Shown here: piece after piece, positions 37,780-46,526 of the stretch
How the letters are laid out: every line of letters starts with the position of its first letter
Numbering within the stretch: position 1 is the stretch's first letter
Assembly: GCF_000022485.1 (NCBI RefSeq)
Contig: NC_012623.1
Coordinates: forward strand, 62,001-126,000
Source: Sulfolobus islandicus Y.N.15.51
GTDB lineage: Archaea > Thermoproteota > Thermoprotei_A > Sulfolobales > Sulfolobaceae
Direction: 5' to 3'
Length of the DNA: 64,000 nucleotides
Program-made: the position numbers and the translations under genes
Notes under the pieces: model-generated
What the model saw: the letters and a program-made list of their open reading frames with translations, nothing else
Databases searched by the model: none
What the model was told of the DNA's origin: nothing

Positions 37780-38085
37780 TTGTTAATATACGTGCTTTGT
37801 TGATCTCTTCAATTTATTTCATAAGCATGATATGATACACTGAGAATTTTTCAGTAATTAATATTTATTTCAACGTTATTCGCAAGCTCACACCCTAATA
37901 CCCGGAGCTCTACCAACTAAAGAATTAGCCAAGTGGACCATCCATGCATAAGCCCAGAACTTGAGCTTAGCCTCAACCACTTGTCCTAAAAAACTCCTAC
38001 GGGGCAATCCACGCAAAACAAGAGAACGAATAAAACCAAGTATTACAAGAGAAAAGGAAATAAACAAGTAAGGAGAAAAACAACA

Positions 38086-38212
38086 TAAGCTCATAGAAAA
38101 CATGGGGATAAAACCCCATCTACAAGGCTAGCTGTGAAGCCCCTAGAACGATCTAACAAGAGGGGATAAAAACCCCCGAGTAGGAGGTTGTAACAAAATA
38201 CTCTAGGGGCTG
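38086..38212 (+). ncRNA. IS110 bridge RNA candidate, copy A
   Basis: Upstream of and in the same sense as the transposase. Loop 1: stem AGCT (38088-38091)/AGCT (38130-38133), capped by hairpin GGGG-ATAAAA-CCCC (38104-38117). Its 3' side holds CTACAAG (38120-38126), exactly complementary to CTTGTAG at the occupied target (39479-39485, core CT first). Loop 2: stem GCCCCTAGA (38139-38147)/TCTAGGGGC (38202-38210), inner hairpin GGGG/CCCC, with GTAGGAG (38180-38186) complementary to the element's left end CTCCTAC (37994-38000). All stems covary with copies B and C. This two-loop target/donor layout is that of the IS621 bridge RNA. RNA ends are approximate. Confidence 0.75.
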
Positions 38213-38289
38213 AAACACTTAACACTATGCAAAGAAAACAAGGTATTATGAGAACAAAAAATATCTCGAGAAACGCGTAATACACAAGC

Positions 38290-39450
38290 ATGGAATTAAA
38301 AGTTACAAACAAGGCCTTCGCAATTGATATTTCACAAAGCAAACTAACAGCAGCAAAGGGAGAACTAGTAGTAGAACAAGAAAAATCAGCAGTATACGTC
38401 AAGGAGGTAAAGGAATTCAACCACGACAACGAGGGAATAGAGGAACTAATTAAATTCCTAGGAGAATATAAGGAAGGAATAATAGAGGCAACTGGAATAT
38501 ATTACTTCTACCTACACGAAAAACTAACGGAAAAAGGATACAAGGTAACAGTAATAAACCCACTACACCTAACAGAAATACTAGGGAAAAAGACAGACAA
38601 ACTCGACGCACAAAGGTTACTAGTAGCACACATGACCGGAGTAATCAAGGGATCATACATACCAACAGGAGAAATAATGGAGCTAAGAGAACTAACGAGA
38701 TATAGGGAAAGCTTAGTAGAGAAGACAACACAAGTAAAGAACGAGATAAGGAAAATATTAGAATTCGCGGGATATAAAATACAACCATTCGACAAGAAGG
38801 GAAGAAAACTACTTGAAAAGCTAGTAAAGGGGGAGGGACTAAGCAAGGAAGAGAAGGAGGAACTAAAAGAAAAACTAGGGAGAAACTTAAACGACGCGGA
38901 AAAACTAGCGTTAAAACAATTAGTTGAACTGTTAAAAAACTTGGAGAAAATGATTAAGGAGGTTGAGGATATGATAATTTCCAAGATTCCAAAACCAGTA
39001 ATTGAGTTGAGTAAGATCCCCGGAATTGGTTTGATTAGTGCTGCAACTATTTACGCTGAGTTCGGTGATGTTTCCCGTTTTTCCAGTTCTAAGGCTGCTA
39101 GGGCTTATGCAAGCTTTGCACCCAAAACTAAGCAGAGTGGTGATAGCGAGTCTCACTCCGGTATGATTAGGGGTAATAAGTATTTGCGTAGAGCTCTCTA
39201 CTTGGTTGCCAAGGTTGCTAGGGGTCTTGAGCCTTTTAAAGGGTATTATGAGAGGCTTATTGCTAGGGGGAAGAGTGTTACTCAAGCTACTTGTGCTCTT
39301 GCCGGAAAGCTTGCAAGCATTTGTTATCATGTTATAAAGGACGGTGTTTACAAGGGAGTTGTCAAGAAGAGTTTTAGGATTCCTAGGGGTAAGGAAGTTA
39401 ATGTCAAGGACTTCGACGTGGGAGACGCGCTAGACTCGTTATCCCCATAG
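38290..39450 (+). CDS. IS110-family transposase (copy A)
   Basis: 386 residues with the two-domain IS110 layout. The N-terminal RuvC-like DEDD domain has Asp 13 (FAIDIS), Glu 66 (IIEATG), Asp 103 and Asp 106 (KTDKLDAQRL). A central charged coiled region spans about residues 130-235. The C-terminal Tnp (transposase_20) domain has KIPGIGLISAATIYAEFG and the catalytic Ser 283 in TKQSG. It appears complete. The C-terminal 12 bases overlap the remnant frame of the IS5 transposase. It recombines DNA via a serine intermediate guided by a bridge RNA in the best-studied relative, IS621. Confidence 0.95.
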   Translation: MELKVTNKAFAIDISQSKLTAAKGELVVEQEKSAVYVKEVKEFNHDNEGIEELIKFLGEYKEGIIEATGIYYFYLHEKLTEKGYKVTVINPLHLTEILGKKTDKLDAQRLLVAHMTGVIKGSYIPTGEIMELRELTRYRESLVEKTTQVKNEIRKILEFAGYKIQPFDKKGRKLLEKLVKGEGLSKEEKEELKEKLGRNLNDAEKLALKQLVELLKNLEKMIKEVEDMIISKIPKPVIELSKIPGIGLISAATIYAEFGDVSRFSSSKAARAYASFAPKTKQSGDSESHSGMIRGNKYLRRALYLVAKVARGLEPFKGYYERLIARGKSVTQATCALAGKLASICYHVIKDGVYKGVVKKSFRIPRGKEVNVKDFDVGDALDSLSP

Positions 39451-40337
39451 GTTTGTTAGAGGCGTCAGCATGTAGTGCCTTGTAGCCCTAACAGATTCCC
39501 CAAAAGTACGCTTCACAGCAGATAATAAGGACTCAATCCTCCACCTAACACCGTAACCCTTCTCCTCCCTCCAACGATTATAACCCAACCTCTTGAACTC
39601 CCTTACAGCCTTTCTCCTAGCAGGATGGCCACGCCTAGTAGAAGCGTTCTTCCTAGGTGGGGCAACAACCTCAACCCCAGTCTTGTAAACCTCATTAGCA
39701 TCATAAGCTTTATCTCCATAAAACTTCTTTCCCTTATCTTGTAAATCCTTAACTGTCTTAACTGCAGTCTCAACCTCGTTGCTGGTTACTTCAGCGTTTA
39801 TTACGTTGAATTGGTCCTTATCCATTACTATTTCGATCTTGAGGAATTTTGAGTCCTTGGTTTTTCCCCATTTTGCTATAATGTATTGTCCTCCCTTGTT
39901 TGTGCTTATTCCCGTTGCGTCTGCTATTACTTCAAGTTGGTCATTTGCCTCTGGGAATTTTATGTTCATGTTTCTTACTCTTTCCCATATTGTTGAGTAG
40001 TCTAGGCTTGTTGGGATGATTTTCAGTCTCTCTAGTGCTCTCAATACTCCTTCTATGGCCCTATAAGGTAGGAACAAGTGCAGGAACGCTAGGAAGTCGT
40101 TGAACTCCTTTGGCGCCTTGTAGGTTTTCTTGGCATTCCTATTCTCTTCTGCTAGTAATTCCCACCAGTGTTCGAAGACGTAGAAGGGGAACATTAGGGT
40201 ATATCTCGTTATAACGTTCTCGTCGTACTTGTGCCAATCCCTCTTGTACTTACTCTTTCCCATGAGTAATACTCGGTATAATTATTTATAAATTTTTGTA
40301 TAATTCTGAAGTAGCCCACAAAGCAGTGTGACTATCA

Positions 40338-40349
40338 AAGTTTATAAAC
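40338..40349 (+). promoter_or_regulatory. TATA box of structured RNA copy 1
   Basis: AAAGTTTATAAA is identical to the element in front of RNA copy 2 (50881-50892). Transcription start 25-30 bases on would fall near 40370, just before the first base of stem 1 of the RNA. Similarity between the two loci begins at this box, so the promoter belongs to the duplicated unit. Confidence 0.55.
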
Positions 40350-40371
40350 CTTCACATTAACATTTTATTGA

Positions 40372-40530
40372 AGGGTGCCACTATGAAGTCTATGAGCAAT
40401 GTGAGGCGGAGTAAGGCACCCAATGAAACTCCCCATGTCCTTGAAGGGAGTTAGTCCCGTAGACGGCATGGGGAGGGAAGAAGAGTGATGAGGCCGAGTG
40501 ATTAATAGTCACGATGAAGGCCGAACTCTA
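40372..40530 (+). ncRNA. three-stem structured RNA, copy 1
   Basis: It shares conserved blocks with 50921-51103: ATGAGCAATGTGAGG, CTCCCCATGTCCTTGAAG and CCCGTAGACGGCATGGGGAG. Stem 1 GGGTGCC (40373-40379)/GGCACCC (40415-40421) reads GAGCCC/GGGTTC in copy 2. Stem 2 CTCCCCATG (40429-40437)/CATGGGGAG (40467-40475) is identical, enclosing a variable inner stem. Stem 3 GAG...GGCC (40483-40495)/GGCC...CTC (40519-40528) reads GGGG...GGAC/GTCC...CCCC in copy 2 and encloses a variable hairpin. Such compensatory changes support a real RNA. Identity is unknown; a TnpB omega-RNA-like or other mobile-element RNA is possible. A T-rich stretch follows. Confidence 0.65.
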
Positions 40531-40686
40531 ATTTTTATGCTTAGTTTATATTTTGTGTATTCCCTATGTATTATGCCCTATGTATTATGTGTCATTAGCT
40601 TTGATACCTATTGATTATAAAATTAAAAATAAAAATTATTTATAATAATGATTATTATATAAAATGTTTACATCGTATAAAAATGT

Positions 40687-40890
40687 TTATCGTTTTATAA
40701 ATTTATCAACTACATCTTTATAATCATTACATGAAACACTATGTTTAGATACTAAAGGCCATTTTCCATGATATATATAACACTCTATGCCAATATTTTG
40801 TCTTAATCTAATTGCAAGCCTGCCTGGCATTTTACATTTATTGCAAATAACCTCTATCTTAGTATTAATGAATTTACTTTTCCTTTCCAC
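40687..40890 (-). CDS. small Cys-rich protein, unknown
   Basis: 67 residues with CNKC near residues 16-19, a third Cys near residue 37 (GIECYIYHGKW), His residues in YHGKW and SKHSVSC, and a fourth Cys near 54. The C-x2-C ... H ... C spacing suggests a small zinc-binding fold. Segments CKMPGRLAIRL and YIYHGKWPLV resemble small crenarchaeal zinc proteins that I cannot name. It is flanked by RNA copy 1 and the mer locus. ATG start. Real coding is likely but not certain. Confidence 0.45.
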   Translation of the reverse strand: MERKSKFINTKIEVICNKCKMPGRLAIRLRQNIGIECYIYHGKWPLVSKHSVSCNDYKDVVDKFIKR

Positions 40891-41130
40891 ACATTACTCC
40901 CAATGATATTAATATTAAATTTTATTCCCTTTCTTTGATTTGTGGGTTAGTTGAACTTTCTTAGTTCTTAAGCTAGATGAATTGCAATAAATTCTAAACT
41001 AATCCAGATTAAAAGTTAGTTATCGTTCTCTCTGAGAAAAATTGAATGATTCATAAAGAACCTTTTCTTTCATCTAATTAGATAATTTAATAAAAAAACT
41101 ACTTATGTCTTATTATCGTTAACAACAATG

Positions 41131-41247
41131 TTAGTGAGAATGGCCATGATGTTCATGGGAATGATGTTCTCTCATGTGTTTCTCTGCTTCTTCTTTTGAT
41201 TTGAATGTCATTCCACATGCCTCACATTTGTATTCCTCTTTTGCCAT
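41131..41247 (-). CDS. 38-residue C2H2 zinc-finger protein with His-rich tail
   Basis: Too short for routine ORF calling: ATG at 41247, stop TAA at 41131. It contains a classical C2H2 finger (Cys 8, Cys 11, His 24, His 28; spacing C-x2-C-x12-H-x3-H; YKCEACGMTF) followed by an HHSHEHHGHSH tail of seven His in eleven residues. A ribosome-binding-like AGGTGA sits about 7 bases before the ATG. It is divergent from merA with a 20-bp palindrome between them. It could be a regulator or metal chaperone of the mercury locus, in the position where known Sulfolobus mer operons have small metal-binding genes; that role is inferred. Confidence 0.7.
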   Translation of the reverse strand: MAKEEYKCEACGMTFKSKEEAEKHMREHHSHEHHGHSH

Positions 41248-41289
41248 TCATATTTCACCTAAATTAACATATCTTTAAAAAATATAAAG

Positions 41290-41309
41290 TTTACCACCAT
41301 GGTGGTAAA
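41290..41309. promoter_or_regulatory. perfect 20-bp palindrome, candidate mer operator
   Basis: TTTACCACCATGGTGGTAAA is its own reverse complement over all 20 bases. It lies between the divergent zinc-finger gene and merA. A TATA-like GCTTAAATAAC (about 41318-41328) lies 25 bases before the merA GTG, with the palindrome just upstream. On the other strand CTTTATATTT (about 41279-41288) abuts the palindrome. A bound repressor or activator dimer could control both directions. The cognate regulator is not in the window. Confidence 0.65.
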
Positions 41310-41821
41310 TGAAAAAGCTTAAATAACTGTATATATGAATATATGTTCATAGGTGAAAATATTGAAGAAATATGATCTTTTAATTATAGGTTGTGGGGCA
41401 AGCGGATTTGCTGCTGCAATAAAAGCTTCAGAACTTACGGAGGGTAAGATTAAAATAGGGATGGTCTGCAAGGGATTATTGGGTGGAACATGCGTTAATG
41501 TAGGTTGTGTCCCAAGTAAATATTTAATAGAAATTACAAATAAATATTACTTATCCAGAAAAAAATTTATTGGATTAGAATTATCTGCAAAAATAAATTT
41601 CACTGATATTATGGGTGGATTAAAAAAGGTTGTTAAGGAATTAAGAGAAGAGAAGTATGAGAAAGTTCTTAATTATTATTCCAATGTGGATTTAATAAAA
41701 GGAGATGTAACTTTCATTGAACCTAATAAAATAAGAGTTAATACAGAAAAAGGAGAACAAGAATTAAGTGGTTCTAAAATTATAATAGGGGTAGGCTCCA
41801 CATGCTTTGCCTCTAACATGG

Positions 41822-42973
41822 CTAGGCGATGGCTTGAAGAGCCGAAGGAACTACTTGATTGGGGTCAACTTGAGGGCCTTCACCACCTCCTCCCCTATAC
41901 CTAGTCTTCTTAGTCTCACCCTTGTATTCCCCATCCTTGAGTACGTGATAAACTATCCTACATATCTTGTTGGCCAAGGCTAATGTAGCCTTTTTGGAAT
42001 TACCTGTCCTCTTCAACAAGGCTTGATAGAAGCCATTAAATTGGACCGTGTTCTTAGCGGACCTTGCAACAAGGAATAGAACGCGGGATAAGTGCTTATT
42101 CCCCTTGATGAGACCGTTGTGAAATTCGGTCTTCCCGCTCTGCTTAGTCCTTGGAGAAACTCCAGCATAAGAAGCAGCTTGTTTCGAAGACTCAAACCTG
42201 CTCACGTCTCCAAGCTCAGCGTAAATTGTGGCTGCAGAGATTGGGCCTATTCCGGGTATCTTAGTCAACTCTACTGCTTCCTCGGGTAGGAACTTCATTA
42301 TCTCGTTCTCCACTTCCTTGATTTGTTCTTCTATAATGTTCAGTAGGTCCAGGAGTTGTTTTAGGATGAACGCTTCTATTCTAGTTAATTTTCTTCCCAA
42401 TAATTTGGAGTACTCCTTGATCTCTTCGTCAGTTAGCTTCTCATCAGTGGCTAGTTTTCTCACTATTTCCTTTGTCTTCTTTTCGAAGGGAGGTAGCTTG
42501 TATCCTGCTGTTTCTAGAACTTTCCTTATCTCGTTCTTTACTTGTGTCTTTCTCTCTACTAGTCCTTCTCTGTGTCTTGTCATTTCTCTTAGTTCTTGCA
42601 TTTCTCCCGTTGGTATGTACGATCCTTTTACTGTGCCTGCAGCGTAGGCTATTGCGAGTCTTATGGAATCGTTCTTGTCTGTCTTCTTGCCTAGGACTTC
42701 AACTGTTTGTACAGGGTTTATCACGTTTACTTTTAGTCCCTTGTCTCTCAGTACGTTGTATACGTGGTAGAAGTATACTCCTGTTGCTTCCATTATTCCT
42801 TCTTCGTATCCTTCTAGGAATTTTATAAGTTCTTTGAGTCCTTCCTCGTTGTATTTGAATTCTCTCGTATCAGCTTCTTTTACTGTGTTGTTGTTTATTT
42901 CCATCTTGGTTGCAACAAGTCTTGATTCCCCCACATCTATTGCAAATACTTTAGGCTTTATCTTCCTTTCCAT
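41822..42973 (-). CDS. IS110-family transposase (copy B)
   Basis: 383 residues, same layout as copy A: DEDD residues Asp 13 (FAIDVGES), Glu 62 (IMEATG), Asp 99 and Asp 102 (KTDKNDSIRL); central helical region; C-terminal domain with KIPGIGPISAATIYAELG and catalytic Ser 279 in TKQSG. It seems complete and probably active. The two transposases differ throughout, mainly in the central region, while the motifs are conserved. It is read opposite to the merA gene it interrupts. Confidence 0.95.
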   Translation of the reverse strand: MERKIKPKVFAIDVGESRLVATKMEINNNTVKEADTREFKYNEEGLKELIKFLEGYEEGIMEATGVYFYHVYNVLRDKGLKVNVINPVQTVEVLGKKTDKNDSIRLAIAYAAGTVKGSYIPTGEMQELREMTRHREGLVERKTQVKNEIRKVLETAGYKLPPFEKKTKEIVRKLATDEKLTDEEIKEYSKLLGRKLTRIEAFILKQLLDLLNIIEEQIKEVENEIMKFLPEEAVELTKIPGIGPISAATIYAELGDVSRFESSKQAASYAGVSPRTKQSGKTEFHNGLIKGNKHLSRVLFLVARSAKNTVQFNGFYQALLKRTGNSKKATLALANKICRIVYHVLKDGEYKGETKKTRYRGGGGEGPQVDPNQVVPSALQAIA

Positions 42974-43065
42974 GTGTAATACTCTTTTTCTGATTCTTGA
43001 ATTTTTCTATAATAATACGCGTTGTATTGTTAATTTTGTTAGGAGATAGTGCGAACTAACTATGA

Positions 43066-43185
43066 GAACGTCCCCTTAAATTTTTGCACACTCCTACTCG
43101 GGATGTTGTCCCACATGTTAGATCGCGGGGGACGTATAGCCAGCCTACCCCATGGGGTTTTATCCCCATGTTCACTTTCGGCTTG
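43066..43185 (-). ncRNA. IS110 bridge RNA candidate, copy B
   Basis: In transposase sense (minus). Loop 1: stem AGCC/GGCT capped by the same GGGG-ATAAAA-CCCC hairpin as copy A (43152-43169). Its 3' side reads GGGGTAG (43151-43145), exactly complementary to the target half CTACCCC in merA (plus strand GGGGTAG at 41788-41794). Loop 2: stem ACGTCCCC/GGGGACGT (3' strand at 43075-43068), inner hairpin GGGA/TCCC, and GTAGGAG (43097-43091) complementary to the element left end (43276-43270). Stem pairs differ from copy A but keep pairing. UCUAACAUG in loop 2 is also complementary to the right end (41812-41820). RNA ends are approximate. Confidence 0.75.
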
Positions 43186-44273
43186 TGTTATTTTCTTGTT
43201 CTCTTTATAAAAGTTTTACTCTTGTAAAGCTTGTCTTCTTGTTTAGGAGTGTTGTTCGTGAAAATCGCCGTAGGAGGTTCTAGACCAGCGATACCCCCTA
43301 TACAAGGACTTCAAAATGTAGGTTATATAACAAGTGATACGGTTTGGGATTTAAAAGAACTTCCACATTCTCTATTAGTGATAGGAGGTGGAGCTATAGG
43401 ACTTGAAATAGGGCAAGCTTTAGCTAGATTAGGATCTGAGGTTACAGTAGTAGAGGTTATGGATAGAATACTGCCTAGTCCTTATTTTGAACCAGAAATT
43501 AGCTATGCATTAACTGATTATTTAGAAGATGAAGGACTAAATATTTACACTAAATCTACAGTGACTATGGTTAGTAAAGAAGGAGACACGAAAGTAGTAG
43601 AGATTAGTACTAAGCGTGGAAAACAAAGACTAGAAGTGGATGAGATATTAGTAGCTACAGGGCGTAGACCTAATACAGAGAATTTAGAGCTTGAAAAAGC
43701 TGGAATAACAACAGATCAAAAAGGCTATATTTTAGTAGATAAATTCTTACAAACATCTAACCCTATAGTATATGCTGCTGGCGATTGCATAGCTAAAAGT
43801 TTAATGCTTGAAACTCTTGCAGCCAAGGAAGGTGTATTAGCAGCTACTAACGCTATAAAAGGGAATATAGAAACCATAGATTATTCTACCACGCCAATAG
43901 TAGTATTTACAGATCCTCAAGTTGCTTCTGTTGGTTTAACGGAAGATGAACTTATGAAGAGGGAAAAAGTATGCTCTTGTAGAATCTTAAAATTAGATTA
44001 TGTTGCTAAAGCTAGGTTAATCGGAGATACTAGGGGTTTCGTTAAACTAGTTGTTAATCCTAAAGATGGTACAGTAGTTGGTGTTCATATCCTTTCTCCC
44101 CTAGCCTCTGAAATAATAATGGAAGGCGTAATGCTTGTAAAAAATAAAGTTAAATTAGAAGAATTAGTAGAAACTACTCATGTATTTCCTACAATATCAG
44201 AAAGCATAAAGTTAGCTGCACAATCCTTTATCAGAGATCCATCTAAGATGAGCTGCTGCGTGGAGTGAGTCTT

Positions 44274-46194: not shown

Positions 46195-46526
46195 GACCCT
46201 ACTGCTTCGCCTCTAACAGACTTGGGGGGAATCGAGAATCTATGCGTGTTAACCATGTTTCCTTATATATTCTTTGTGATCATAATACCTTGTTTTCTTT
46301 TTATAGTGTTAAGTGTTTCAGCCCCTAGGGTAATTTGGTTACAACCTCCTACTCGGGGTTTTATCCCCTCTTGTTTTCTAGGGGCTTCACAGCCAGCCTT
46401 TCAAATGGGGTTTTATCCCCTTGATGTAATTGGGCTTATGTTGTTTTTCTCCTTACTTGTTTATTTCCTTTTCTCTTGTAATGCTTGGTTTTATTCGATC
46501 ACTTGTTTTGCGTGGATTCCCTATAT
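46195..46526 (-). mobile_element. transposase-less IS110 derivative, copy C
   Basis: On the minus strand this 330-base unit repeats the left end of copy A nearly throughout (AATCCACGCAAAACAAG ... AACAAGGTATTATG) up to the transposase ATG, then jumps within about 35 bases to the IS110 right end (GTTAGAGGCGAAGCA, 46217-46203). The whole transposase gene is deleted, leaving left end, bridge RNA region and right end: the form of a non-autonomous element. Its outer left end (CCTATATAGGG) differs from the CTCCTACGG of copies A and B, so it may be a decayed or rearranged copy. Boundaries are approximate. Confidence 0.7.
46318..46438 (-). ncRNA. IS110 bridge RNA candidate, copy C
   Basis: It has the same two-loop fold as copies A and B: stem AGCC/GGCT, hairpin GGGG-ATAAAA-CCCC, then loop-1 guide position TTGAAAG (46404-46398); second stem AGCCCCTAG/CTAGGGGCT with inner GGGG/CCCC hairpin and the invariant donor segment GTAGGAG (46352-46346). 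The loop-1 guide is different from both A and B, as expected for a reprogrammable position, but it does not match the present flank, and the 5' side of loop 2 is shortened. So the fold is kept while function is uncertain. Confidence 0.55.

Follow-up and report, generated by a model that had tools for sequence, protein, structure and literature searches.

Archaeal IS110-family elements of Sulfolobus islandicus with a probable bridge RNA whose guides match their insertion sites

How does an insertion sequence (IS) in an archaeon choose the place at which it inserts? This question is raised by a stretch of 64,000 nucleotides (nt) from Sulfolobus islandicus Y.N.15.51 (contig NC_012623.1, positions 62,001 to 126,000; hereafter the window), a member of the Sulfolobales, which are known for their hot and acid habitats. 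The window contains two elements of the IS110 family, here termed A and B, each with a non-coding leader upstream of its transposase gene. Our analysis leaves little doubt that A and B are archaeal IS110-family elements of the IS621 type and that their leader is to be read as a bridge RNA. A previous reading made from the letters of this DNA (the sequence-only reading) had proposed the target-loop and donor-loop logic of IS621 for them, and this proposal is now supported by protein domains, catalytic residues, a predicted fold and matches between guides and flanks.

Both transposases exceed the Pfam and NCBIfam cut-offs for the DEDD_Tnp_IS110 and Transposase_20 domains (coordinates and motif residues in Table 1). 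The recombinase of IS621 was matched to transposase A by phmmer (7.6e-19) with the E, both later D and the S-G residues aligned; with transposase B, the E and S-G are aligned and the alignment ends before the later D residues. The first catalytic Asp was assigned in both proteins by motif position only. D13, E66, D103, D106, S283 and G284 (numbering of A) are invariant in five relatives including B. Relatives are denoted here by locus (L) and genome (G) numbers. For the transposase of L065, which is 91% identical to A, AlphaFold gave a model with a mean predicted local distance difference test score (pLDDT) of 76.8 and values below 50 in the serine loop 279-293. Its best Foldseek matches in the Protein Data Bank were IS621 (8wt6 and 8wt9; 7.8e-17 for 8wt6) and ISCro4 (9t56, 2.2e-16), followed by TasR and box C/D Nop proteins. 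The L065 transposase is thus predicted to have the arrangement of RuvC domain, coiled coil and Tnp domain that is characteristic of the IS621 type.

The same genome (2.85 Mb) harbors 15 intact copies of A and one broken copy. Counting the window copy itself, 14 of the 15 show 0 to 3 mismatches to it and one is 1 nt shorter; the copies are nearly identical and their spread is therefore recent. Copy A has 296 nt of non-coding sequence upstream of the start codon and 28 nt downstream of the stop codon. This anatomy bears on the idea of an IS1111-type element guided by a downstream seekRNA. The recombinase superfamily would be the same, and in IS1111 members the RNA lies downstream of the gene, but the long non-coding region and the candidate guides of A and B are found upstream, as in ISEc21 (PMC11187229; here and below, statements on published systems refer to the accessible part of each cited paper). 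We consider this the least probable of the alternatives, with next to no weight.

Folding of the 140-150 nt leader upstream of each transposase predicts two domains, in agreement with the two-loop fold described in the sequence-only reading. Domain 1 is a short stem around a GGGG-AUAAAA-CCCC hairpin, and domain 2 consists of a longer stem and a second hairpin. Leader A was not equalled in stability by any of 200 shuffled sequences (z -5.4), and 4 of 200 reached the full-length leader of B (z -2.6); the leaders of L065, L069, L073 and L082 gave z scores of -3.0 to -4.4, better than shuffles. One two-sided change in a stem pair between A and B was noted by eye. The leader is kept across relatives save for short blocks flanking the first hairpin, and from this pattern the variable blocks on either side are most simply read as the target guides. 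By homology to IS621, the leader would be transcribed and assembled with the recombinase into a ribonucleoprotein, and the element would pass through a circular intermediate. Loop 1, composed of left guide, hairpin and right guide, would form base pairs with the bottom strand and the top strand on the two sides of a CT core in the target, and loop 2 would recognise the end of the element itself by pairing. The circle would then be integrated into the target by the DEDD/serine recombinase, so that either junction holds a single CT.

The most direct evidence comes from the right target guide. As had been stated for loop 1, CTACA-AG in A and GGGGT-AG in B are exact 7-nt complements of the core and the adjoining five bases at the two occupied sites. 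In all 16 copies with the A guide the right flank begins with CTTGT (CTTGTAG in 13, CTTGTAA in two, CTTGTCC in one), and the three copies of B have CTACCCC as right flank at two kinds of site. For a wider comparison, relatives were taken from nine other genomes. After merging of identical guide/site pairs, 25 distinct pairs with readable ends were obtained from eight genomes of the same family, the home genome included. Excluded were L072, L081, L089 and L092, for which a right end could not be located, L024, whose left end is truncated, L084, L087 and L094, which lack a guide row, and the relics of L125, L126 and window positions 46310-46450. Over the five non-core bases, the right guides match their flanks in 97 of 125 positions, against a mean of 40.9 and a maximum of 68 in shuffled pairings, and none of 20,000 shuffles reached the observed value. 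The match is 5/5 in ten pairs, 4/5 in eight, 3/5 in four, and 2/5, 1/5 and 0/5 in one each. When the register is slid, the mean of 3.88 matches out of 5 falls to 2.0 or less. The claim that such agreement is unlikely to arise by chance thus holds, also for the 23 pairs that were new with respect to the sequence-only reading (87/115 versus 38.0, 0/20,000).

Could the matches be a by-product of common descent, with a conserved leader travelling beside conserved flanks and guiding nothing? Such an origin would fit the fact that 11 of the 15 intact A copies occupy one and the same IS5 site, that the guides form six clusters only (more than two differences), and that elements of genome G136 share sequence past their right end. 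Against it, identical leaders are found in unrelated genes (IS5-family, ISH3-like, HTH_10 and ThiC), with flanks that begin with CTTGT, and at the HTH_10 and ThiC sites the reading frame is restored when the flanks are joined. Moreover, the match is not reproduced by slid registers or by shuffles among clusters: the first-listed pair of each of the six clusters gives 27/30 versus 10.0, which 23 of 20,000 shuffles reach. Without the three G136 elements L085, L086 and L088, the 25-pair set still gives 84/110 versus 34.9. Common descent without guiding is therefore very improbable.

A second alternative assumes that the transposase protein itself reads the flank and that the likeness of the leader reflects a regulatory RNA or a decoy mimicking the site. 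It would accommodate the loose match on the left side (see below), and the leader RNA is known here from its sequence. The proteins of L078 and L079 in genome G155, however, are closely related, yet their right flanks differ in step with their guides: the L078 guide expects CTTGTAT and the element sits at CTTGTAT, the L079 guide expects CTTGTAC and the element sits at CTTGTAC. By sequence comparison, close relatives that differ chiefly in their guides thus appear to have correspondingly different targets. In addition, IS621 and ISEc21 act by RNA guidance (PMC11208160, PMC11187229). Recognition by the protein is hence most unlikely, if marginally less so than common descent, and guidance by the leader is the reading followed below.

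The insertions are precise and leave one CT at each junction. A 130-nt query made by joining the two IS5 flanks of A found seven empty copies of the site at 98-99% identity in the same genome, one on a small contig, and four more matches at 85-92%. On this query, base 62 is the last base of twelve left halves and base 61 the first of twelve right halves; therefore CT alone is repeated at the junctions. The empty sites of L079 and L065 also fit a CT core without further duplication. A GT target core had been considered for L079 owing to its left junction GTC and was rejected, as unoccupied sites of that genome have the CT core with the left flank TTTGAAGTC. In L011, L065-L067, L070, L071 and L093, extra CTC units lie between the left flank and CTCCTAC, which may be due to slippage of the core on a CTC repeat.

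A left target guide was absent from the sequence-only reading, as were 14 further intact copies and the broken copy of A, two further copies of B and the leader at 46310-46450. The left guide of A matches the left flank of L022 in 7/7 positions and the IS5 site in 6/7, and that of B matches the left flanks of L026/L027 in 6/7. The clearest left matches are those of L069 and L022 (7/7) and of L065, L082 and L075 (6/7). For the 25 pairs in fixed register the total is 83/175 versus 54.7 (1/20,000 shuffles), and with one pair per left guide (n=17) it is 58/119 versus 36.4 (8/20,000). Stripping of extra CTC or GTC junction units raises the total to 99/175 versus 62.7 (CTC alone: 97/175 versus 61.5, 0/20,000), and a free register yields 130/175 versus 89.5. 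The sequence-only reading had named intact copies with unrelated guides as the case that would speak against it. On the right side, no such case occurs among the 11 pairs in which the transposase has an uninterrupted frame (50/55 versus 22.4, shuffle maximum 49; 3 to 5 of 5 in each pair), and the left side is looser (44/77 versus 30.6, with 27 of 20,000 shuffles as good).

In the donor loop, the complementarity between GTAGGAG and the element's own left end CTCCTAC, which had been noticed in both copies, was found again in A and B. Comparison by eye of 23 aligned leaders showed an exact right donor guide in 20; L092 deviates at one base, and the segment is no longer present in L083 and L091. 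In 17 of these leaders CTCCTAC is paired with GTAGGAG, and in L073, L074 and L082 the left end CTCCCAC is paired with GTGGGAG, which by its sequence has the appearance of a natural compensating change between end and loop. L083, L090 and L091, all from genome G167, are degenerate relatives whose leader is without a right donor guide.

Several observations weigh against the bridge-RNA reading or some part of it. The right match fails in L090 (0/5), L093 (1/5) and L074 (2/5); these are the lowest values of all, and the transposase is broken in all three. L074 was ruled out as an intact counter-example, its transposase being split over two frames. In genome G136, L085, L086 and L088 have approximately 12-20 bp past the presumed right end in common and differ in their left flanks; because of this shared sequence beside unrelated left flanks, their right targets are perhaps carried along by the element. 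The same 12-20 bp are also common to L087 of this genome, and the sequence that follows differs among L085-L088; the shared stretch may belong to the actual right end of the element or be a flank that was captured. On the left side, the guides taken together match their flanks, but loosely and in a variable register: in fixed register, B in merA (1/7), L018 (2/7) and L068 (2/7) are poor, and a shift by one gives 4/7, 6/7 and 4/7, respectively. No left donor guide was recognised by eye in the aligned leaders, and no covariation was seen; the motif CATGTGG is shared with the element's own right end in B only among these leaders. With regard to the fold, two sequences barely beat their shuffles, namely the leader of L078 (z -1.2, 25/200) and a truncated piece of leader B (z -1.4, 20/200), and RNAalifold shows no pair changed on both sides, the covariation in the stems being too weak to judge. 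An Rfam scan revealed no family covering the leader; its single match, Sso133 at 40413-40475, lies outside the elements. Finally, a pattern with one mismatch allowed to the A guides (see below) has 38 matches in the genome, 16 of which are TAAAAAACTTGGAG inside the transposase gene of A itself, and none of these 16 is occupied.

Which sequences do the guides address? The pattern derived from the guides of A, TANAAAACTTGTAG, has ten exact matches in the genome, nine of them within empty copies of the IS5-family site (eight full-length, one partial); therefore the best match of the A guide is a site in a high-copy transposon. With one mismatch allowed, the 38 matches compare with 12 for a reversed control pattern. 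The flanks of 14 sites were joined, the resulting sequences translated, and eight of the frames scanned for families. NCBIfam matches were obtained to ISH3-like (1.9e-13), ThiC, IS1-like (1e-14), zinc ferredoxin and TnpB (5.7e-32) families, with weak matches to IS5_4-like (6.7e-4) and IS4-like (7.6e-6) families; the eighth frame matched HTH_10 of Pfam. Several of these matches fall under the curated cut-offs, as is expected because the frames are fragments. Other assigned targets are IS5 for A, merA for B and, for the L065 group and L082, the leader found in a second subgroup of IS110 elements. Altogether, transposon sequence makes up 7 of 11 assigned target sites; the sites outside the 11 include those of L026/L027, L073, L074, L085, L086 and L088. 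B splits the mercury(II) reductase-like gene (41353-44268 of the window) in this strain. Its copies L026 and L027 are inserted between GTGAA and CTACCCCGCCCTCACCGGTAGACCCAA, a short sequence found at both places, which may represent the terminus of some other mobile element. A search of a phage collection listed matches below 60% identity throughout, and searches of a plasmid collection and of loci with protein A alone gave nothing useful.

The second subgroup, which is struck by insertions of the L065 type (NF033542 2.1e-48 for L102), includes L097, L102, L103 and L113-L124. Its members have a hypervariable leader, the left end CCTATATAGG, the right end ACTGAACG and the core CC. Their left guides match the left flanks in 106/154 positions versus 64.4, a value reached by none of 20,000 shuffles that were likewise allowed offsets of 0-2. 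The match of the right guides is weak (37/70 versus 26.9, 552/20,000 as good) and its register was picked after looking; it is 5/5 in four of 14 pairs (L003/L098, L040, L099, L114) and 0-3 in the remaining ten. The guides of L097 and L103 look exchanged, which we infer to reflect recombination between copies.

These results permit a broader and tentative proposal, namely that the IS110 elements of these Sulfolobales archaea live largely by RNA-addressed parasitism of transposons, with guides that are rewritten naturally and exchanged by recombination, and with a donor perhaps read through one arm, unlike IS621. The guides would be fitted to conserved sites in high-copy IS5-, ISH3- and IS1-like genes, in TnpB genes and in the leader of the second IS110 subgroup. 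We regard this as a conceivable scenario which is rather less probable than its opposite.

Bridge RNAs are already established in bacterial IS110 elements, and in 85.7% of the IS110 elements examined a bridge RNA was predicted with the help of covariance models (PMC11208160). The name of the NCBI model likewise labels the family as RNA-guided. A and B resemble IS621 in the combination of DEDD and serine recombinase domains, in the upstream leader RNA with its order of stem, left guide, stem loop and right guide, in the CT core within the pairing, and in a right donor guide that matches the element end (PMC11208160, PMC11208158). They differ from it in the archaeal host, in a protein that is about 60 residues longer and, in the fold alignment, identical at about 25% of positions, in a right guide of 7 nt with the core instead of 4, and in that a left donor guide is not recognised here. 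Longer right guides, as in A and B, also occur in some IS621 orthologues (PMC11208160). ISCro4 (9t56) shows the same fold, again with about 25% of the aligned positions identical. In the seekRNA elements ISEc11 and ISEc21, a non-coding RNA with matches to the top and bottom strands guides insertion (PMC11187229). Among archaea, ISC1229 of the related S. solfataricus also belongs to the IS110 family; Cbp1 occupancy is reported for it, with no guide RNA in the accessible part of that paper (PMC10883916).

A search of the open-access literature, which leaves most subscription papers and supplements outside, found no paper on bridge RNA in Sulfolobus, and the supplements of PMC11208160 may list archaeal elements. 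Likewise, no experiment on an archaeal bridge RNA was found in the accessible portion of the open literature on bridge RNA, IS110 and archaea. The present elements extend the bridge-RNA logic to archaea by natural evidence in which guides and targets can be read directly. Less expected is the large number of natural guides directed at other transposons. The elements offer candidate recombinases, for which nature has already produced guide variants, and a testable account of why IS110 elements pile up within other insertion sequences in these genomes.

Table 1. Positions of the two IS110 elements, their candidate RNA features and their sites in the window
Feature	Position	Strand	Remarks
IS110 element copy A, 1485 bp	37994..39478	+	inside IS5-family transposase gene; CT core at 37994-37995, again at 39479-39480
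IS110 transposase A, 386 aa	38290..39450	+	D13, E66, D103, D106, S283; PF01548 and PF02371; NF033542 4.4e-68
Bridge-RNA-like leader of A	38074..38221	+	covariance model 147 bits (A itself in model); fold z -5.4
Putative left target guide of A, TAGAAAA then C facing core	38094..38101	+	
Putative right target guide of A, CTACA + AG	38120..38126	+	exact complement of 39479-39485
Putative right donor guide of A, GTAGGAG	38180..38186	+	complements left end CTCCTAC, 37994-38000
Core and right target at A site, CTTGTAG	39479..39485	+	complementary to right guide of A
IS5-family transposase gene split by A	39439..40263, frame resumes 37888-37993	-	NF033579 2.8e-42
IS110 element copy B, 1482 bp	41795..43276	-	inside mercury(II) reductase-like gene; n=3 copies in genome
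IS110 transposase B, 383 aa	41825..42973	-	D13, E62, D99, D102, S279; 54% identical to A
Bridge-RNA-like leader of B	43057..43197	-	covariance model 98.3 bits (B itself in model)
Putative left target guide of B, AAGTGAA + C	43170..43177	-	
Putative right target guide of B, GGGGT + AG	43145..43151	-	exact complement of 41788-41794
Putative right donor guide of B, GTAGGAG	43091..43097	-	complements left end CTCCTAC, 43270-43276
Core and right target at B site, CTACCCC on minus strand	41788..41794	-	
Third leader copy, short relic without transposase	46310..46450	-	covariance model 147 bits, not in model

The relic leader listed last in Table 1 adjoins a fragment of the second IS110 subgroup, and its right guide matches the right flank in 0/5 non-core bases (by eye). 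RNA-257 of S. solfataricus was considered as a counterpart of the leader and rejected, since it derives from ISC1904 and not from an IS110 element (PMC3674436). The Rfam match Sso133, a Sulfolobus small RNA, lies on the plus strand directly past the IS5-family transposase gene.

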